The notes under the pieces are model-generated. The model was not told the DNA's origin. It worked only from the letters and a program-made list of their open reading frames with translations, and did no database searches. From a virus, in IMG/VR virus record IMGVR_UViG_3300020000_000024, positions 1-48,740 of that record: a DNA stretch of 48,740 nucleotides. One strand, given 5' to 3'. Shown here in pieces: positions 4,627-28,095 of the stretch. A program made the translations under genes and the position numbers. Every line of letters starts with the position of its first letter. The first letter of the stretch is position 1.

Positions 4627-5874
4627 TTAATCTATTGGAACAATATCTGTCACTTCATTGCTCTTTTGTTTAACTACTGGACCAATTTTAATATTACGAA
4701 TCTGTGAATCTTTCAGTACATGATTATGAAGTTTCAAATAGAGTAGTACAGCATCCCTATTAAGTGGTCCTTTCATACCTTTAATTGTAACCATTCCATC
4801 CTCTGCTGAATTAAGAAATCCTTTTAAAACCTTTTTCATCTGATTTTTACTAGATGCATAGTTTTCACATAGCAATGTAGCATAATCAGCATATTTAGTT
4901 CTATATTGATTTAAAGGAAGAATTGTAACAGTATTCCTTAATTCCCCTTTAGAAATCATATGACAAGTTGCAATTCCACATTCATTATAGGTTTTCTTAC
5001 CATTGATAACACTATCATCAATCTCTTTTCCCCAATAATAATCTCCAGAAATATAGAAATCTTCTTCAGGATTAATCATTAATCTCAATAATCTAGTTGT
5101 ATATGATTCTTTCTTTTCAAAATAAATCTCTCCAATAGTCCATTGATTTACTGGTATTCCAAAAGCATTTCTAGCTGAAAATTCACTTGTTGAATCTGTT
5201 GCAAATAGTTCAGCCATTGTTTTAAGATTCTTATTCTTTGATTCAGTAGTTTTACCTCCTACATCTTCAATTTTAACATCAAGATAACATTTATTAGAGA
5301 ATTTATATCCTTCATCTTCAATAAAATCACCTATAGTGATTATATCATGATCAGGGAACATAAATGCTAATTTATTTGTACTTAAAGTAATATCAAAAAT
5401 TGAACAGAATAAAGTTTTATCCCTCTTCAATAAATTAATAAACTCTGGTATACACATAAACTGTTTAATAAAATGATAAGTATCTGAATAATCAGATCCT
5501 GCATTGGAATATTTAAAAAATGTTCCATTATGAACCATCAATACATCTGCAGATGTACCTTCTAATTCAAGTATCTCATTTTGTTTATCTGATAATACAA
5601 ATGGATGACAATTATAATCTGTAAGTTTACCTTTATTTCCTCTTCTTGAATGAATAATTAATTCATCATTAATGGTTAAATTAAGTTTTTTTACATCCTC
5701 TAATAAAATATCAATATCTGTATATCCCTTTTTGAAACTTACTAATTCTACACCATCATATTTGGCACAGAAACCATAACCATCTTTATTGTTTACAGCT
5801 CCTGTTTTAATAGCATTAATAAATTTATCTGAATATTTATCCGTACCTTTACCTGCTATACCTATGAGACACAT
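4627..5874 (-). CDS. Class II glutamine amidotransferase-like protein (Ntn hydrolase), 415 aa
   Basis: Starts at ATG 5874, giving Met-Cys (MCLIGIAGKG) so that Cys2 becomes the N-terminal nucleophile after Met removal; a longer reading from a TTG at 5907 would bury the nucleophile. Further GATase II signatures are HSRRGNKG (near 75-82), HNGTF (near 115-119) and SDTYHF (near 130-135). The C-terminal ~200 residues have no recognised domain. It should release ammonia from glutamine (or act on a gamma-glutamyl amide) and pass it to a partner. It overlaps the amidoligase gene by 13 nt and is the first of two GATase II genes in this cassette. Confidence 0.85.
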   Translation of the reverse strand: MCLIGIAGKGTDKYSDKFINAIKTGAVNNKDGYGFCAKYDGVELVSFKKGYTDIDILLEDVKKLNLTINDELIIHSRRGNKGKLTDYNCHPFVLSDKQNEILELEGTSADVLMVHNGTFFKYSNAGSDYSDTYHFIKQFMCIPEFINLLKRDKTLFCSIFDITLSTNKLAFMFPDHDIITIGDFIEDEGYKFSNKCYLDVKIEDVGGKTTESKNKNLKTMAELFATDSTSEFSARNAFGIPVNQWTIGEIYFEKKESYTTRLLRLMINPEEDFYISGDYYWGKEIDDSVINGKKTYNECGIATCHMISKGELRNTVTILPLNQYRTKYADYATLLCENYASSKNQMKKVLKGFLNSAEDGMVTIKGMKGPLNRDAVLLYLKLHNHVLKDSQIRNIKIGPVVKQKSNEVTDIVPID

Positions 5875-7367
5875 ATTAATTCTTTTATTGATTTCTTTTC
5901 TCCACAACCCTCTTTGTATTCTTTTCTTTCTTCTTTAAGTCCAGCAGTTGTATTACCAGAATTAAATTTAGCCTTTCTCTCTTCAATATAACCACAAAGA
6001 ACATGTCCTGTTTTAGGATAAGCTGCCATGATAATATCAGTAAGAGTAAGATTTTCAGTAAGAATTCTTTCTTTGTAATTTTCAACAAAGTGAACAAAAG
6101 CCATACAAAGTTTAATCCAATTGTAGATTTTAACAAAATTACTAGAACCTGGATGATTTCTGAATTCTAATGTATAAGATCCATTTCCCCTAATATTAAA
6201 TGCTGCTGGAATAAGATTTAACCAACAATATCTTGGAGTGGAATGATCATATTGACACTTTGGACCCATTGGATGTTGAGCCTTTCTATTCACTTCTTTA
6301 CCTTTTTGAATTTGATAATGAGATAACCATTCATAAATACTCATGAAATAATCATCTAATTCAAGTTCTCTTTCTCTATATTCTTTAGAAAAAGCAGTTT
6401 TAGTGAATTTAGTTCTAATTGATCTACAATATTCATTACCTTTTCTAGTTGGAGGCATTATAGATGTAATCTCATGCTCAAGTTTATTACCTAAAATATA
6501 TGCTAAAGTAATAAATTCTTTAGAGGCATCGAAGCCACCTACATGCACATGAATTCCACAAAACTCATCTATAGTTCCTCTTTTAGCAAGTTCAATACAC
6601 ATATCCTGTAAATGATTCATTCCTGTATCACCTGTAAGTACTCCAGTAACAATCTCTGGACCACCTTGTTTTGCATTTAATGAACCATCTCTCATACATT
6701 TCATATTGTACTTATGAGATAAATACTCAGGTATATACAATCTGGAGAATTCAAGTTCAACTCCAAAAGTATATTTTAATCCTTCAGTAGATAGATATGT
6801 TCTGCTTTTCCATCCACCATTATATCCATCTAAATCACAATCATTATCAAATTTCCTAAAATCTTTATAATTATTATTGAATAAATCTGGAGAGAAGAAT
6901 TGCCCATTTACAAAACTTTCGATCATACCTGCATTAATAAATACTTCTGGATTTGCTCCATAAATACCTCCTAATTTTGCATGTTGTCCTATAGGACATT
7001 TTCTAGGATTTCTTGTATAACCAACTTTATTCTTATCAATATCTACAAATACTTTTACACAATTGTCTTTGAAATCAAATTCATTGGTTACAACATCTGT
7101 TATAATTCTAGGATCATCCTTCCTTACTCTCACACCATGAATTACCATTGTAGTTCCATCATCTTTTAAAAGTTCTTCTTCTTGTTTAGCTTTTTGTTTT
7201 TTAGGTATAGGAGGATTCCACATAGGAAGATCATCTGGTAATCCTATAGGATCTATGGGATCATTTCCAACATTCCATCCTGGTACAGCATTATTACCAG
7301 GATGTACTATAGGATTTCCTTCAGCATTTACCCAGACCCATTCTCCATTTACTTCCTTAACTGGCAT
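5862..7367 (-). CDS. Amidoligase (COOH-NH2 ligase of the glutamine-synthetase-like fold), 501 aa
   Basis: The central/C-terminal part carries amidoligase signatures: YTFGVELEFSR (about 199-209), RDGSL (226-230), GPEIV (236-240), HVHVGG (273-278) and EFRNHPGSSN (about 400-410), the conserved Glu/His metal and ATP ligands of this superfamily. The N-terminal ~190 residues include Trp/Pro-rich sequence (EWVWVNAEGNPIVHPG) with no known domain. Amidoligases form amide bonds between a carboxylate and an amine using ATP. It is flanked by two class II amidotransferases with overlapping ends, strongly implying a joint pathway. Family call firm; substrate unknown. Confidence 0.82.
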   Translation of the reverse strand: MPVKEVNGEWVWVNAEGNPIVHPGNNAVPGWNVGNDPIDPIGLPDDLPMWNPPIPKKQKAKQEEELLKDDGTTMVIHGVRVRKDDPRIITDVVTNEFDFKDNCVKVFVDIDKNKVGYTRNPRKCPIGQHAKLGGIYGANPEVFINAGMIESFVNGQFFSPDLFNNNYKDFRKFDNDCDLDGYNGGWKSRTYLSTEGLKYTFGVELEFSRLYIPEYLSHKYNMKCMRDGSLNAKQGGPEIVTGVLTGDTGMNHLQDMCIELAKRGTIDEFCGIHVHVGGFDASKEFITLAYILGNKLEHEITSIMPPTRKGNEYCRSIRTKFTKTAFSKEYRERELELDDYFMSIYEWLSHYQIQKGKEVNRKAQHPMGPKCQYDHSTPRYCWLNLIPAAFNIRGNGSYTLEFRNHPGSSNFVKIYNWIKLCMAFVHFVENYKERILTENLTLTDIIMAAYPKTGHVLCGYIEERKAKFNSGNTTAGLKEERKEYKEGCGEKKSIKELICVS

Positions 7368-8688
7368 GTTCCTCTTGTTTTATTGTTTCAAAATAACTAT
7401 CATCAACTAATGCTTCAAGACTTGCAATTTCTCCATTAATATTCTCACCATGAGCATTCTTTTCCTTGAGTTTTTCAAGCAACTCATTCATTTTATCCAG
7501 AACTTCATTTACTTTCTCTTTCATAAGTCTTTCTTCTTTTTCTTCTTTAGATTCTTTTTTGAATTTTTTTGCATAATCAGATAACTCAAGCATTGTTAAT
7601 TTTCTAATAGCACTATAAGGAACTGTTCCTGTAGTACCATTTTTCATAAGAGTTACTTCAGCTCTTTCATCTGCTAAAATATCAGTAACAAGTAATATTG
7701 CACCTTTAGATGCAAATTTCTTTCCTTTATCTCCTTTATTTGTATAAAATAAATCATGCATTACCATTACATAATCATTTTCACAAATTTCAAAGTCCGT
7801 GAAATCTATTCCATATTTTGTAATATGTTGTCTCTTATCATTACTATCAAGTACAATGACTGTATAATCATTTATATTTGAATAATCAACTGCCAGATAC
7901 CATTTACCATCTAAGATATTATAAGGTTCATTTACGCTATTTCTAACACTAATACCTGCTCTTACCCATCTATTAACTAAATCAAATGGTTCAATAGATT
8001 CTCTATCTACATTAGTGAATTTCTTGACTACATTATGATAACTTCTTTTTAACTTACGTTTAGTAAATTTACCATCTGTAATAGTATAGAGATGTCCTGT
8101 ATCAAATTGATCAATCTTCTTACAATCAATAACTTCTAATGATTCTTTAATGGAAGATATATACATATTACCATCCAAGTATCCATAATACAATGGTCTT
8201 TCATAGTTTCTATATACATATAATGTATTTGGTTTCTTAACATTTGTCCAAATAGTTGCTATTGCACCATTAACATCTTCTAAGAAATCAGGTTCATCAA
8301 ATTTATTCACTGCATGACAGAGAAGTTCACTATCTACATTAAATTGATTCCATTTTAAACCTACTTTTTCCATTAAAGGATAAGTATATCGTAATGTTCC
8401 ATTATGAACTAATACAGTATCATTTACTTTAAATGGATGAGCATTTTCTTTAATAATAGTTCCAACTGTAGCAGCTCTTGCATGTCCTATAAAAACATGA
8501 TCTTCTGAAAATACATTGTATTTATTCAGAAAATCTACCATTGAAATATTATCTTTAATAATCCCTTTAGAAGGAGAATAGATCCCTGCGGAATCTTTTC
8601 CCCTTTCTAAGGCGTTATATATCATCAATAATTTTAATAATTTTTGATCTGGTGCTATCACACCTGAGTACCCCACAATTCCGCACAT
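7357..8688 (-). CDS. Class II glutamine amidotransferase (GFAT/PurF-type N-terminal domain), 443 aa
   Basis: MCGIVGYSG gives Cys2 as nucleophile; GHARAATVG (Arg71), VHNGTL (Asn96-Gly97) and VDSELL (Asp119) complete the glutamine site. Residues 1-210 match the glutaminase domain of GlmS/PurF/AsnB enzymes, but the expected SIS or synthetase domain is absent. Instead there is an unrecognised region and a Lys/Glu-rich, probably coiled-coil, segment near 370-430. It probably supplies ammonia to a separate ligase, most likely the neighbouring amidoligases. It overlaps the amidoligase gene by 11 nt and begins 1 nt after the type-2 ligase gene. Confidence 0.88.
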   Translation of the reverse strand: MCGIVGYSGVIAPDQKLLKLLMIYNALERGKDSAGIYSPSKGIIKDNISMVDFLNKYNVFSEDHVFIGHARAATVGTIIKENAHPFKVNDTVLVHNGTLRYTYPLMEKVGLKWNQFNVDSELLCHAVNKFDEPDFLEDVNGAIATIWTNVKKPNTLYVYRNYERPLYYGYLDGNMYISSIKESLEVIDCKKIDQFDTGHLYTITDGKFTKRKLKRSYHNVVKKFTNVDRESIEPFDLVNRWVRAGISVRNSVNEPYNILDGKWYLAVDYSNINDYTVIVLDSNDKRQHITKYGIDFTDFEICENDYVMVMHDLFYTNKGDKGKKFASKGAILLVTDILADERAEVTLMKNGTTGTVPYSAIRKLTMLELSDYAKKFKKESKEEKEERLMKEKVNEVLDKMNELLEKLKEKNAHGENINGEIASLEALVDDSYFETIKQEEHAS

Positions 8689-8689
8689 A

Positions 8690-9502
8690 TTATACTTTAA
8701 TTTCCTTTTTAACTTCTGTTTCTAATTGATACTTATCAGCAAGAACTCTTGCTAAATCAAGATTATTCGTATTAATTGCTTCTACAATATTCTTTTGATC
8801 ATGATCCACAAAAGCACCAGAGTTGATAAATTCCAATGCTGCTTTAATATTTCTAAATAACCAATTTACTGTATCCTGATCCTGAATTACAAAGTTACCT
8901 AAAACCCTATACTCAACACCATATTGTTTAAATCTGAAACAACCAGCTTTACCATACATTTTCCTACGCTCTGTATCTTTATCTATAAATAGACTTGGAA
9001 TAGCAAGGAATAAATCAAGTACTTTTACAATTTCCTCAGATACTTGATCTGTAGGGTTTTTATATCCAATGTGAATATGACATCCAGCAGTTCTTAAATT
9101 ACTATTAGCATAATCAGCAGGTTCATTTACACTCTTTGTCCACACATTAAAATCTGGTGAACACCCTGCTTCTCTTGCTTGTTCATTATCAAAATACTTT
9201 TCATTTACATATCCAGATGATTGAATTGATACTTTAATATTCTTATCTTTAAGAAAATTATCAGTATAATCAATACAATATCTTACATTTTCATAAAACT
9301 TCTCTGGTTGTTCTAAAGAAACAGGAGGAAATGTATATTCAGCCAGAACATTATCTGTTTGAATTCCACAATCATTACCAATATCATGTGGTTCTCTCTT
9401 ATTACCCTCTATTAAACCAATAGAAGATACAATTTCTTTATCATCTTTAAGAAATACTTCAGGATCAGATCCTATTTTTACTTTTTCAAGATTAATTTTC
9501 AT
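8690..9502 (-). CDS. COOH-NH2 ligase type 2 (phiEco32-type amidoligase), 270 aa
   Basis: Conserved features of the phage COOH-NH2 ligase type 2 family: KIGSDPEVFLKD (9-20), an acidic EYTFPP segment near 55, CHIHIGYKNP (about 140-149) and EYRVLGNF near 197-204. These supply the acidic and histidine ATP/metal ligands of a glutamine-synthetase-like fold. The family was described in phage phiEco32 together with GATase and ATP-grasp genes. The product is not known; modification of peptidoglycan peptides, of a protein side chain, or synthesis of a small peptide have been proposed. It lies 5 nt from the GGCT-GATase I fusion gene. Confidence 0.83.
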   Translation of the reverse strand: MKINLEKVKIGSDPEVFLKDDKEIVSSIGLIEGNKREPHDIGNDCGIQTDNVLAEYTFPPVSLEQPEKFYENVRYCIDYTDNFLKDKNIKVSIQSSGYVNEKYFDNEQAREAGCSPDFNVWTKSVNEPADYANSNLRTAGCHIHIGYKNPTDQVSEEIVKVLDLFLAIPSLFIDKDTERRKMYGKAGCFRFKQYGVEYRVLGNFVIQDQDTVNWLFRNIKAALEFINSGAFVDHDQKNIVEAINTNNLDLARVLADKYQLETEVKKEIKV

Positions 9503-9507
9503 TTGTT

Positions 9508-10569
9508 TTAATTTTCGATTACTACTTCAGAATTTTGTGCAATTTGTTTGTTACTTCTTTCATAAACTGTATCCAATAGTTTACGCATACATTTAATTGT
9601 AAAGCTATTATTAGACAGATACTCAGGATGCATTTGGATTGCAAGGCATTTAGTTTTTGGATAATAAGCTATTTCAACATCACAAAGAGGATTCATATCT
9701 TCATTATCTCCTCCTAAGTGCATTTTACTCCTATCAGGATTTGATGCAATGATTTGATATTCATCTTGAGGAAGATTAAATGGATATTGCATTTGATGAT
9801 GTGTACTTGAAGCATCAATTTTCTGTCCTTTCTTTACAAGATCTTCAATATCTTCATGCAATTCAATTGAATGACTTCCAGCATGTTGCATATGCTGCAC
9901 TAATTTACCACCATTCATAACACAAAGAAACTGCGAACCTCTGCAGATTCCAAGTATTTGCTTACCTAAAGATAGAGCTTTTTTATAAATTTCAATTTCT
10001 CTACTATCTCGTGCAATATTTGAACTGGTATGATAATGTTCTTTCTCTCCATATAAACTTGGATCAACATCCTCTCCACCAGTAAATAATACAAGATCTG
10101 CATCTTCAATATTTTTTACAATTTGACCTTCCATCCATCTTGCATATCCAGTTTGAGAATCTGCTATAAATATTTTCCTTTTTGCTACTTTATCTTTTTC
10201 CATATCTCTGTTTAACCAATCATTTGTTTCAATTTTTACTCCACCTCTTGCTTCAATATCACCTTTTTTCATTAACCAAATAATAACATTTCGATTAACA
10301 CCATTTATTTTATGTGAAAATGACCAACTATAATATCCAGCATTCATTTCCATTTCATCAATATCAATAAAATCCTCATCTGAAACAGATAAGAAATCTC
10401 CTGTTGCAGGAAGATTATTACTATTTGTAAAATCTGCTACAGGATATGGTCCAAGATCAAATAATTGAATTCCATATAATATTGCTGTAGCTTCATGTTG
10501 TAATGATTTAAATTTATTAAAGTTTGGTTCTCCTGGTCTTAATGTACCATATGCAAATATGTATTTCAT
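9508..10569 (-). CDS. Gamma-glutamylcyclotransferase-like / class I glutamine amidotransferase-like fusion, 353 aa
   Basis: Residues 1-115 are a GGCT/AIG2-like domain (FAYGTLRPGE at 5-14; acidic DIDEMEMNAGYY near 69-80 fits its catalytic region). Residues 130-330 are a class I GATase / gamma-glutamyl hydrolase-like domain (peptidase C26): LFTGGEDVDPSLYG, the nucleophile elbow GICRGSQ with Cys209, and MHPEY with His314 and Glu316. Both domains act on gamma-glutamyl bonds, so the fusion probably edits or recycles gamma-glutamyl amides made by the ligases around it. The next gene upstream overlaps its ATG by 4 nt. I know of the domains as neighbours in phage clusters; whether this exact fusion has been reported I cannot check. 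Confidence 0.85.
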   Translation of the reverse strand: MKYIFAYGTLRPGEPNFNKFKSLQHEATAILYGIQLFDLGPYPVADFTNSNNLPATGDFLSVSDEDFIDIDEMEMNAGYYSWSFSHKINGVNRNVIIWLMKKGDIEARGGVKIETNDWLNRDMEKDKVAKRKIFIADSQTGYARWMEGQIVKNIEDADLVLFTGGEDVDPSLYGEKEHYHTSSNIARDSREIEIYKKALSLGKQILGICRGSQFLCVMNGGKLVQHMQHAGSHSIELHEDIEDLVKKGQKIDASSTHHQMQYPFNLPQDEYQIIASNPDRSKMHLGGDNEDMNPLCDVEIAYYPKTKCLAIQMHPEYLSNNSFTIKCMRKLLDTVYERSNKQIAQNSEVVIEN

Positions 10570-22825: not shown

Positions 22826-24730
22826 TTATTTTTTCCAATATTTATCTATAGTAATATCTACTTCCATATTAACTTGTTTAACATATTTATTACCACAGAT
22901 TATCATAATTTCTTTCATTTCTTGTGCAAATTGTTGGGCTAAATCTTCTCTAACTTCAACATCAATTGCATCATGCACTGTACATATTAGAAAAGCAACT
23001 TCTTCTTTGTATTGATTATTATACTCTTGAATTAGTCTTCTTATTTCAATTAAAGCTTCTTTACAAATATCAGCTCCAGTTCCTTGAATAGGCTGATTTC
23101 CACCATTTCTTTCAGTCTCACCTTCAGCCATTAAAATAGTTCTCCAATTAACTTTAGAGTTTTCTATTTCATTTTTCTTTATTTGTGCTCTTAAATCTTG
23201 AGCTATTTGTATTTTAGGATACCATCTTCGTCTTAAAGATGGAGTAAAAGTAGTACTAAACATTTGTTGTTTAGCCTTTAATCCTTGTTGTTTTAACCAT
23301 TGATTTAAGTTAGGAAAAGCTTTTTCATATTCAACGAATAACTGATTAGATTCTTCTATTGATATATTTAAAGTATCAGCTAATTTACTTGGTCCCATTC
23401 CATATGGTTTTCCAAAGTTAATTGTTTTAGCTTTATTTCTTAAATCTTTATCTTCTTTTGTAATTTTCTTTTTAAACATCATAGAACCTGCATAACAATG
23501 AAGATCTTCCCCACTATTTAATACATCTATGAATCCTTTCTCATTACTAGCATCAGCCATTAATCTTAATTCTTGCCCAGAATAATCTGCTGATACCCAT
23601 AAGAATCCCTCTTTAGCTTCAAAAGCATTTCTAAATTTATTATCTCCTGGAATATTTTGCATATTAGGAGCATTATCATCCTTAGACCCAGATGAAACTC
23701 TACCAGTATTTAATACTTGCCAAAAGCTTGTATGTACTTTATTAGTAGTTTTATTTATATATTTTAGAAATTTTTCTCCATATGTACTTACTATTTTAGC
23801 AGTTTTTCTATATTCTTGAAGCTTCTCGAAGAATTTATGTTCTTTAGTTAATTTTTTTAATTCTCTATCATTAGTACTTTCTATATTATAGCCCAATATA
23901 GAAATTAACTTTTTCATTTGTAAAGGAGAACTAAAATTTATATCATAGATTCTTTCTTCATAATTAAATAGATTTAATATTCCTGTTGGTTTATAAACTT
24001 CAGACAATGTCTTATCTTCTTGTATTATTAAATCTAAATCTCTTTGAATTTCTAGAAGTTGTAATTCAGCTCTTAGGGCTGTATCTAACCATTTATCTCT
24101 ATTTAAATAAATTCCATTATACTCAATATCTGCTAATGCTTTAACAACATTATTTTCAATATTAAGACAGTATTCAAGATTATATTCTTTAATCTTTACT
24201 TCTTGTTTTTCCTTTATTAAATGTAAATATTTTACATCTAAAGCTGAATATTCAATTTGTTTATCTGTTAGTGGCTTATCTTCTATAGTTGTAAATTCAC
24301 TTCTTATTTCTTTATCTAAAGTAATATCTAAATACCTTTTCATTAGATTAATTAGTCCGTATCCATACTTTTCATACCCACAAAAAAGAATACATTCAGC
24401 TAACATAGTATCATAAATATTCTCTATAATAATATTAGAAGCTTTTAAAAATTTATAATCAAATTTAGCATTATGAAGAATAAAATTATTATTCTCTAGA
24501 AAAGTTTTTAATTTTTGAATATCTATATATCTAACATCAATTACAAATTGATTTTCAAAATCTCCAAATTGTACTAAAATTATCTTCTTAGAATGACAAT
24601 CTTTTCCTTGGGTTTCTGTATCAAGATTTATCCATTGATGATTTTTAAAATATTCAAACATAAAATCTAAAGAACAACTTTTCCATACTTCACTTTCTAG
24701 CAGCTTTTGTTGTCCTATATAATATATCAT
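22826..24730 (-). CDS. Family A DNA polymerase with 3'-5' exonuclease domain
   Basis: 634 aa from ATG 24730; a TTG at 24748 is a less likely start. Exo domain: NLDTETQG (Exo I), LHNAKFDYKFL (Exo II), YSALDVKYLH (Exo III, YxxxD). Polymerase domain: SADYSGQELRL (motif A), RNKAKTINFGKPYG (motif B, Lys and Tyr present) and CTVHDAIDVEV (motif C). The 5'-3' exonuclease domain of Pol I is absent and is supplied by the gene at 2820-3626. This is the replicative polymerase. Its ATG overlaps the stop of a GIY-YIG gene (ATGA), so the two are co-transcribed. Confidence 0.95.
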   Translation of the reverse strand: MIYYIGQQKLLESEVWKSCSLDFMFEYFKNHQWINLDTETQGKDCHSKKIILVQFGDFENQFVIDVRYIDIQKLKTFLENNNFILHNAKFDYKFLKASNIIIENIYDTMLAECILFCGYEKYGYGLINLMKRYLDITLDKEIRSEFTTIEDKPLTDKQIEYSALDVKYLHLIKEKQEVKIKEYNLEYCLNIENNVVKALADIEYNGIYLNRDKWLDTALRAELQLLEIQRDLDLIIQEDKTLSEVYKPTGILNLFNYEERIYDINFSSPLQMKKLISILGYNIESTNDRELKKLTKEHKFFEKLQEYRKTAKIVSTYGEKFLKYINKTTNKVHTSFWQVLNTGRVSSGSKDDNAPNMQNIPGDNKFRNAFEAKEGFLWVSADYSGQELRLMADASNEKGFIDVLNSGEDLHCYAGSMMFKKKITKEDKDLRNKAKTINFGKPYGMGPSKLADTLNISIEESNQLFVEYEKAFPNLNQWLKQQGLKAKQQMFSTTFTPSLRRRWYPKIQIAQDLRAQIKKNEIENSKVNWRTILMAEGETERNGGNQPIQGTGADICKEALIEIRRLIQEYNNQYKEEVAFLICTVHDAIDVEVREDLAQQFAQEMKEIMIICGNKYVKQVNMEVDITIDKYWKK

Positions 24731-25395
24731 ATTAATTTCTTTTTCCAAATATATCCGTACATAGATGGCTTTTCACCACTACATACTGCATATATATTAT
24801 GTTTCTTATAAGTAGGATTTTTTTTAATTATATCAATTAATCTAGTCCATACTTTTATTAACTTATTAGTTTCTTTATCATATTGATATATTTTATATTT
24901 TGTATGATTGTTAGAAACTTTTTCACTCATTCGTTTTTTCTTTTCAGGATTATCTTTCCAAAATTGTATTGTTCTTTGTGAAGTTTTTAATTTTTCTTCT
25001 GGTTTGTTCGCAAATCTTTTCTTTTGTGCTTCAGATAGTCTTTTTCTTGTTTCTTCAGATATTATATATTTATTTTCACTATCAATTCTTATATTATAGC
25101 CAATTTTTCTATTGTTGGCTTCTAATTTAGCAATCCAAGATAATTCTTTTTCATAAAGTTCTTCCTTTAGACAATATTCCAATACTGAATATTCAAAAGA
25201 AATTCTCTTATATTTGTGCCAAGCTCTAATTAGATGAATATTTTCATCTTTTGATCTTTTATTCAAACCATTAATATGTCTTCTAATTCTATCATATATA
25301 GTTGTAGATCTACCAATATAGATCTTGTTATTAACTAAATTTTTAATTTGATAGATTCCTGATTTTTTGTTGTCTCTTCTTCTATGTAATTTCAT
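24727..25395 (-). CDS. GIY-YIG homing endonuclease, free-standing, 222 aa
   Basis: ATG at 25395 (MKLHRRRDNKKSGIYQIKNL...); a longer reading from TTG 25431 would overlap the promoter at 25401-25431. GIY-YIG domain: SGIYQIKNLVNNKIYIGRS, Arg in YDRIRRH, Glu region LYEKELSWIAKLEANNR. The middle has NUMOD3-like helices (SEETRKRLSEAQKKRF; RMSEKVSNNHTKY) and the end a NUMOD1-like repeat (YQYDKETNKLIKVWTRLIDII...IYAVCSGEKP). No intron core is visible around it and the polymerase appears intact, so it is a free-standing homing gene placed just before polA. Confidence 0.9.
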   Translation of the reverse strand: MKLHRRRDNKKSGIYQIKNLVNNKIYIGRSTTIYDRIRRHINGLNKRSKDENIHLIRAWHKYKRISFEYSVLEYCLKEELYEKELSWIAKLEANNRKIGYNIRIDSENKYIISEETRKRLSEAQKKRFANKPEEKLKTSQRTIQFWKDNPEKKKRMSEKVSNNHTKYKIYQYDKETNKLIKVWTRLIDIIKKNPTYKKHNIYAVCSGEKPSMYGYIWKKKLI

Positions 25396-25400
25396 GGATA

Positions 25401-25431
25401 CAAAGATACAACATAAAAAGTCAAAAGTCAA
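25401..25431 (-). promoter_or_regulatory. Bacteroidetes-type promoter before the GIY-YIG/polymerase pair
   Basis: On the minus strand TTGAC (25431-25427), 18 nt, TATCTTTG (25408-25401), 5 nt before the ATG. The same boxes with the same 18-nt spacing and a shared ATGTTGTATCTTTG core occur at 35749-35779 on the plus strand. Confidence 0.7.
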
Positions 25432-27092: not shown

Positions 27093-27179
27093 TGTTCCTA
27101 GAAGGACTCGAACCTTCAAACCCAATTAAGAGTAAGGGGATTTTAAGTCCCCCGTGTATACCAATTCCACCATAGAAAC
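27093..27179 (-). tRNA. tRNA-Leu (anticodon UAA)
   Basis: Acceptor GTTTCTA/TAGGAAC (one G-U), D-arm GTG...CAC with GG in the loop, anticodon arm GGGGA-CTTAAAA-TCCCC with anticodon TAA, class II variable arm with ACTC/GGGT stem, T-arm GAAGG-TTCGAGT-CCTTC, discriminator A, CCA not encoded. 87 nt. It reads UUA, a very common codon in this AT-rich genome, so it may supplement the host pool. It is the next gene after the tmRNA, separated by 5 nt, probably processed from the same transcript. Confidence 0.93.
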
Positions 27180-27184
27180 ATAAG

Positions 27185-27595
27185 TGGAGCTAGGTGGAGT
27201 TGAACCACCGTATCCCTCTAATATTATTATAACTTTCTACATGTTTAGTATTTAGATTTCTCCTAATACAGGATATTAAATTTTTATTTTATAGTATTTA
27301 TAAACTATTCATGGATGTAATTTACTTCATCACCATCTTTGAAGCTTTCTGATTAAGCTGCGTAAGCTAATTCTGGTTCAGATACAGTGCTCAAATCTGC
27401 TGAGCGATTAAAGGAGGTCTTCACCTTTTTTAATGCAGACGCGTTTTTTACAACATAGAGGACATCTGCTAGTCCACCTACTTCGTTGGTAATGGGTTTG
27501 CCATTTACAATTATATATAGAGTTATTAAACTGCTTCCAATACTAGCAGCACATGCTTGTTATAATTCAATTAAAAGGTCTTTCCCGTTAGCCCC
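27185..27595 (-). ncRNA. ssrA: tmRNA (transfer-messenger RNA)
   Basis: 411 nt. The 5' end GGGGCTA pairs with 3' TAGCTCC (one G-U), followed by discriminator A and no CCA. The 3' tRNA-like part has ACTAAACATGTAG and GGTGG-TTCAACT-CCACC (T-arm), matching bacterial tmRNA 3' ends. A 5' GACCTT...AAGCATGTGC segment and a GGAC/GTCC stem (possible pk1) precede an open tag frame that ends ...SEPELAYAA then TAA (stop at 27355-27353); an ADLSTVSEPELAYAA reading is open, with more residues possible upstream. tmRNA rescues stalled ribosomes and tags products for proteolysis; the tag ends in AA. The exact resume codon is not certain. Confidence 0.88.
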
Positions 27596-27600
27596 ATATT

Positions 27601-27669
27601 TTTAAACAAGTATTACAATGATCTCCCTTACTAGTAACTTACACTAGTCCTTACAAGATTGCACATCTA
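27601..27669 (-). promoter_or_regulatory. Stem-loop region upstream of the tmRNA
   Basis: No gene fits in 27596-27714. A hairpin ACTAGT/ACTAGT (27630-27648, 7-nt loop) with flanking ATCT/AGAT pairing lies about 35 nt upstream of the tmRNA 5' end. It may be part of a leader, a processing site or a promoter region; no clear TAnnTTTG box was found. Confidence 0.3.
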
Positions 27670-27714: not shown

Positions 27715-28095
27715 TTATTCTTCAATTCTATTAGCTAATTCTTCTTGATACCATTTTTTAAATGATTCATGATTAAGATGTAAAAGATATACTTTTACTT
27801 TATTTCCTGTTCGTGGATTAATTTCTACTTTCGTTTCAATTAATTCTCCACAAACATTTAATTTCTTAATTTCTTCAGCTAATAATTGACCTCTACTTTT
27901 ACCTTCATCTTCAATTACATCTGAAAATAATACAAAAGCTGATGGTCTTGGATTTGCTTTATGATATAAAGCTGTTCCTAATGCAAATACTGTTTTATTA
28001 GCGGTTTGATTAGGTAAATGATGCATTTCTAATACAGCACATGAAACTGCTGATTTAGTAAATTGAGCTTGCTTTGAATGTGTATATTCCCCCAT
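27715..28095 (-). CDS. Hypothetical protein, 126 aa
   Basis: ATG start (MGEYTHSKQAQFTKSAVSCAVLEMHHLP...). Mixed alpha/beta, with a RGQLLAEEIKKLNVCGELIETK segment and a conserved-looking KTVFALGTALYHKANPRP. No family recognised. It is the gene preceding the tmRNA, 119 nt away. Confidence 0.7.
   Translation of the reverse strand: MGEYTHSKQAQFTKSAVSCAVLEMHHLPNQTANKTVFALGTALYHKANPRPSAFVLFSDVIEDEGKSRGQLLAEEIKKLNVCGELIETKVEINPRTGNKVKVYLLHLNHESFKKWYQEELANRIEE

Follow-up and report, generated by a model that had tools for sequence, protein, structure and literature searches.

The viral DNA analysed here, a 48.7-kb IMG/VR record (G+C 28.5%) referred to as a whole as the window, carries on its minus strand a genuine one-piece, ssrA-like tmRNA gene of 411 nt (27185–27595, including the discriminator A). 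Its tag reading frame comprises 49 open codons, and the tag is under selection at the peptide level in related viruses. We consider it quite probable that this tmRNA, from a Crassvirales phage, is functional and that its tag carries a module.

At a permissive threshold, RF00023 matches 27182–27595 (minus strand) over the whole model (1–374), with 46.6 bits and an E-value of 2.9e-17; the score is 0.4 bits short of the Rfam gathering cut-off of 47 bits, so the gene is unlisted at that cut-off. ARAGORN made no tmRNA call in the window at its default setting and placed a tmRNA at 27184–27595 (minus strand) at the 80% threshold (-ps80). The minimum free energy (MFE) of the RNA is −102 kcal/mol, compared with −80.4 ± 4.65 kcal/mol for shuffled sequences (z = −4.65), and the MFE fold contains the 7-bp acceptor stem, the long helix 2 and the T-arm.

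The elements of the gene, all on the minus strand, are arranged as follows. The 5′ strand of the acceptor stem, GGGGCUA (27589–27595), forms 7/7 pairs with the 3′ strand, UAGCUCC (27186–27192), next to which the discriminator A lies at 27185; the stem includes G3:U70, the pair that acts as the alanine identity element. The T-arm (GGUGG-UUCAACU-CCACC, 27193–27209) has 5/5 pairs, and ACUAAACAUGUAG (27236–27248), the 3′ strand entering helix 2, is kept in the alignment and paired in the MFE fold. Helix 3 of pseudoknot 1 (PK1), GCUGC...GCAGU with an 11-nt loop, occupies 27530–27550. The D-arm region is short and divergent. A tRNA-Leu(UAA) with a cloverleaf and a UAA anticodon (27093–27179, minus strand; ARAGORN; RF00005, 56.1 bits) lies 5 nt downstream, and neither RNA encodes CCA. 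An earlier, sequence-only reading had proposed a phage tmRNA beside a tRNA-Leu(UAA), both without an encoded CCA, and had described a 411-nt minus-strand gene with the acceptor pair, ACUAAACAUGUAG, a T-arm and a PELAYAA-stop end; all of these are present. The identification also withstood the checks which that reading had named, model support and pairing of the ends, given the RF00023 match and the 7/7 acceptor pairs. Only its outer coordinate, 27669, needs correction, as it lies 74 nt too far upstream of the gene's 5′ end at 27595. A promoter scan gave no excess over shuffles.

On the sequence of its terminase and portal, the carrier is a Crassvirales phage: the matches of TerL and portal are phrog_6681 and phrog_6547 (Crassvirales-type), and the closest TerL relative is uncultured phage cr118_1 of the Suoliviridae (46.5%). 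The host is likely a member of the Bacteroidota, judging by the hosts of related phages. Elsewhere in the window, a cluster of amidoligase, glutamine-fructose-6-phosphate aminotransferase-like, glutamine amidotransferase and gamma-glutamyl cyclotransferase-like genes (5862–10569, minus strand) might be a module for modifying peptides or the cell wall, and a homing endonuclease gene (24727–25431, minus strand) lies directly upstream of the DNA polymerase gene and overlaps it.

The tag frame (27353–27502, minus strand; GKPITNEVGGLADVLYVVKNASALKKVKTSFNRSADLSTVSEPELAYAA) begins with the resume codon GGC at 27502 and extends over 147 coding nucleotides to the stop codon UAA at 27353–27355. Its start at nt 94 of the RNA is the canonical place, since tags start at nt 94–100 in all eight RNAs of the family described below and at nt 90–103 in host tmRNAs, with one at nt 130. 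The frame closes with a degron-like PELAYAA and the stop (27353–27376), matched in relatives by ELELAA, ELRLAA or ELAVAA; the sequence-only reading had seen this end but missed the 49-codon frame that leads to it from the resume codon. No Pfam family matches the tag, and PDB matches, at E-values of 0.28–0.95 only, were regarded as chance. AF2 modelled a single helix at residues 11–31 with low confidence (pLDDT 57), which we judged too weak for a fold search.

Homologous tags of 41–44 codons are present in seven other virus records, mostly Crassvirales-like, which together with the window form family 1. The first of them, L079, emerged when viral contigs were scanned with a pattern for the 3′ half of tmRNA (its tag and that of the window match by BLASTP with E = 4e-8), and a profile of the window and L079 tags yielded the six others (L087–L092); a single tag peptide found nothing as a query, and the two-sequence profile was what worked. 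The window's closest relatives may be missing from the searched sets. BLAST of the tmRNA against phage records had returned low-complexity or chance matches only. A crAss-like TerL is encoded in 5/7 of the relatives' records, and in the L079 record the DNA polymerase shows 64% identity. Two members score above the RF00023 cut-off (L090, 68.4 bits; L092, 81.2 bits). No long-tag relatives of this family were found in bacterial genomes.

The consensus of the relatives' tags, DKVVITNEVGGIADVLAVVKxASAKVIKLTPAPxAxELELAA, contains a nearly invariant core, ITNEVGGxADVLxVVKxxSAK in the eight tags, which in the window reads ITNEVGGLADVLYVVKNASALK (27428–27493, minus strand; invariant in the 8 phages as ITNEVG..DVL.VVK..SA.K). 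The linker between this core and the C-terminal end varies freely. Within a 20-codon block, differences fall at codon positions 1, 2 and 3 in a ratio of 88/77/199, and pN/pS, as a simple estimate over short stretches in a small sample (n = 8), is 0.21 for the core and 0.48 overall. Both the codon-position bias and the low pN/pS indicate that the peptide is what is conserved. Such codon-phased conservation of the core argues against a spacer, a decoy, an internal start and a relic alike.

To judge from the alignment, the RNA of family 1 is itself also under selection. Acceptor pairs 4–7 are compensatory across the eight RNAs (4.0/4 pairs formed with the RNA's own strand, 2.06/4 with strands swapped), and PK1 helix 3, with 5/5 pairs in 8/8 RNAs, covaries, using three different pair sets around an invariant 11-nt loop. 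G3:U70 is found in 7/8 RNAs, including the window's; L089 has neither G3:U70 nor an A discriminator, and one member or more is thus possibly degraded. In L087 and L091 the T-loop is AUCGUAC rather than UUCRANU, on 5-bp T-stems that are intact in both; positions 54 and 58 of this loop seem to have changed together.

That the gene is a degenerating remnant of a host tmRNA or integration site, as its score under the cut-off and the broken acceptor pattern of L089 might suggest, is hardly credible in view of the compensatory stems, the strong folding z-score, the selection on the peptide and the occurrence across diverse crAss-like phages. Slightly easier to entertain, and still quite improbable, is a decoy, in which a tmRNA-like RNA would occupy the SmpB, AlaRS or EF-Tu of the host and inhibit its trans-translation. 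No SmpB gene was found in the 48.7-kb window or in the records of the seven relatives, three of which span 90–94 kb, and this fits a decoy, as do the divergent D-arm and an Rfam score near the threshold. A precedent is mycobacteriophage DS6A, which has a TLD-only tmRNA gene for which a decoy role has been discussed (PMC4131195). The two are alike in being phage RNAs with the tRNA-like domain of tmRNA, but that of DS6A has little beyond this domain, whereas PK1 and a tag frame under selection are still present in the window gene. A decoy would need none of what family 1 retains: PK1, the position of the resume codon, a frame of 41–49 codons and codon-phased selection. No conserved partner gene was found beside the tmRNA. 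Homologues of the neighbouring gene at 27715–28095 have no adjoining tmRNA in the relatives concerned, and the DNA polymerase relatives have no tmRNA.

A second long-tag group, family 2, came from running RF00023 on 20 annotated phage genomes under stricter filters. Full-length tmRNAs were found in Flavobacterium phage Fpv3 (58.2 bits; 35-aa tag, GNTNNSVVSLEDNAQVEANMNMAFSLIREDVAVAA) and Cellulophaga phage phi14:2 (46.0 bits; 38-aa tag, GNDTDNTQLKANMTVVHNILNGSDALIGSSVQKLAMVA), two cultured carriers with flavobacterial hosts; the annotation of neither lists a tmRNA in the regions read. The Fpv tag is identical across 29 Flavobacterium phage records, with no annotated feature over it where annotation exists. 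In the 18 other genomes, of which 17 come from faeces, sewage or gut Bacteroides, this search found no full-length tmRNA, which suggests that the trait is mostly one of crAss-like phages from beyond the gut groups sampled; fragmentary RF00023 matches of 11–23 bits in several of these genomes were not counted.

A pattern built from Fpv3 and phi14:2 recovered about 27 tmRNA loci, some of them identical, with 19 distinct tags of 26–45 aa that share the core QVxANMxVVHNILNG. Five further loci that matched the pattern (L343, L349, L353, L369 and L373) were not tmRNA-like in appearance and were set aside. All 19 tags end in ..AA except that of phi14:2 (..MVA), differences by codon position are 933/675/1316, and a crAss-like TerL is encoded in 14/17 records tested. 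The 3′ tails end in ..TCCA where the tmRNA is present, and U70 and the discriminator A thus look conserved. In a profile comparison, the cores of the two families reach an hhalign probability of only 1.7, with likeness confined to the ELxxAA end; by this measure they are not demonstrably homologous. One record of this family, IMGVR_UViG_3300025853_000041 (105,181 bases), apparently has two tmRNA genes (L344 and L374), with tags that share the core AQIEANMSVVHNIL and differ in their tails.

The conservation of these cores bears on the simplest account of a working tmRNA with a long tag, namely that the tag is a mere longer degron, giving AAA+ proteases flexible reach to engage folded or membrane-bound rescued proteins and having no specific partner. 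The -AA end in nearly all tags, at lengths ranging from 26 to 49 residues, and the freely variable linker agree with this account. A plain spacer, however, needs no sequence, and the cores accordingly count against it: that of family 1 is nearly invariant (ITNEVG..DVL.VVK) at the low pN/pS given above, and family 2 keeps a core of its own (QVxANMxVVH). We regard the longer degron as unlikely, if less so than a decoy.

The long tag stands out from the tmRNAs of presumed hosts. In Bacteroidota, all 87 genes read by ARAGORN, from 90 loci fetched, have tags of 9–10 aa; an apparent 102-nt limit on the frame in ARAGORN could bias these lengths, but only 3/90 loci went unread, among them a contig-edge fragment and a degenerate second copy. 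The window gene resembles the Bacteroidota-type one-piece tmRNA in its acceptor, T-arm, G3:U70, helix 2, PK1, resume codon at nt ~95, length of ~395 nt and -AA tag end, and differs from it in its 49-aa tag, its phage location and its divergent D-arm. The sequence-only reading was right that the tag is unlike the host tag, but it understated the difference: the tag has 49 aa against 9–10 and is a member of a conserved phage family. The RNA as a whole has kept its length (389–412 nt in family 1, ~395 nt in hosts), whereas the distance from the stop to the 3′ end is 169 nt in the window and 166–192 nt in its relatives, as against 270 nt (397 minus 127) in a host example, L136. Unchanged length and a shorter post-stop part together indicate that ~100 nt of the post-stop region, where pseudoknots 2–4 would be expected, were exchanged for tag; what is left of this region in the window occupies 27249–27352 (minus strand). 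In one Bacteroidota genome, a second tmRNA copy (L283; G149 C1:772761–773172) with the tag GENNYALAA and a degenerate tRNA-like domain sits 45 kb from the intact gene.

Long tags also affect detection. ARAGORN called 14/45 long-tag candidate loci, mostly with truncated tags, and gave internal tags of 11–12 aa for L088, L092 and phi14:2. These internal calls, and a chance of about 2% at the window's composition that a 49-codon frame is open on that account alone, are what could speak for an ordinary short tag, with translation resuming inside the frame (for example at EPELAYAA) and the upstream frame open by chance. Compared with every canonical tmRNA in our set, however, such a start would be ~90 nt more distant from PK1, and at the peptide level it is the upstream part that shows the strongest conservation. 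Moreover, when the whole tag is short enough, ARAGORN makes the same choice as we do: for tags of up to 27 aa it mostly starts at the resume codon read here, and for the shortest tags of family 2 (L350, L361 and L363) it starts in the same place, at nt 85–87. A short tag is therefore very improbable, ranking between the decoy and the relic. Surveys based on ARAGORN undercount phage tmRNAs and misread them. The published frequency, 402 phages or 2.3% (PMC9004378), agrees with the view of the sequence-only reading that few phages carry a tmRNA, but it is such an ARAGORN-based count, and most long-tag genes are missed.

Points against the preferred reading, a functional tmRNA with a module-carrying tag, are the divergent D-arm and an Rfam score slightly under the cut-off, the altered acceptor of L089, the lack of a conserved neighbour, the low-confidence AF2 model and missing Pfam match of the tag, and two cores that show no demonstrable homology. 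Under this reading we infer how the RNA is charged, that it uses SmpB, that it tags chains in vivo and what its core does, as follows. The tmRNA would probably be transcribed together with the tRNA-Leu(UAA); host enzymes would trim it and add CCA, and host AlaRS would charge it with alanine via G3:U70; host SmpB would bind it, and host EF-Tu would be borrowed. Decay of mRNA during takeover may generate nonstop messages, whose ribosomes the phage RNA would rescue, switching them to the GGC at nt 94 and appending alanine plus ~49 residues. The sequence-only reading had likewise suggested ribosome rescue during takeover or, as another possible role, the replacement of a host tmRNA under attack. 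The -AA end should still feed rescued chains to AAA+ proteases. Because the core is conserved and the linker is not, the core presumably binds something, most likely giving a protease, an adaptor or another partner such as a host factor a second element to recognize. Rescued chains would thereby meet a fate set by the phage and unlike the one that the 9–10-aa tag of the host imposes. Since the long tag is kept under selection in related viruses, its role probably goes beyond marking proteins for destruction.

A bolder version, which we put forward tentatively and with somewhat less than even confidence, is that Crassvirales tmRNAs are delivery devices that place a core module on every rescued chain, a phage-chosen fate replacing the SsrA route of the host; the chains may go to another protease or adaptor, inhibit a host factor or be protected. 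The tags of tmRNAs are usually regarded as short degrons, and a long, selected peptide gained for ~100 nt of post-stop RNA suggests that the appended tag is itself a phage tool. With cultured carriers in hand (Cellulophaga phage phi14:2 and Flavobacterium phages such as Fpv1–3, FpV4, FpV21 and the FPSV phages), the long-tag tmRNA is experimentally testable now.

tmRNAs have been described in mycobacteriophage Bxz1 and others and in Bacillus phage G (PMC4131195), in phage Melnitz, where it is of the two-piece type (PMC9004378), and in huge phages, in a survey that rests on ARAGORN (PMC7162821). The window gene resembles known phage tmRNAs in its place on a phage genome and, as is often the case, beside a tRNA; those read by ARAGORN here have tags of up to 28 aa, compared with 49 aa in the window. 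In a comparative survey, mRNA-like regions spanned 48–126 nt, the longest being that of the Odontella sinensis plastid (PMC1168896). At 147 coding nucleotides the region in the window is likewise long, but unlike the plastid one it is phage-encoded and its core is conserved across phages. A search of the open-access literature, with subscription papers outside its scope, found neither tags of this length nor a conserved tag core reported.

Other phage tmRNAs encountered in this work have tags of their own. L034 and L040, with an identical tmRNA, have a 35-aa tag, ANTKNSAFSKIAEALAPSSFSNEVISTEDNVLMAA, that is unrelated in sequence to both families, and no crAss TerL was found in these short records. 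Four further phage tmRNAs (L021, L056, L071 and L078) have a common 25-aa tag, ..FVVSENFL.EA.CSFAGELAVA, and the L021 record encodes SmpB as well.
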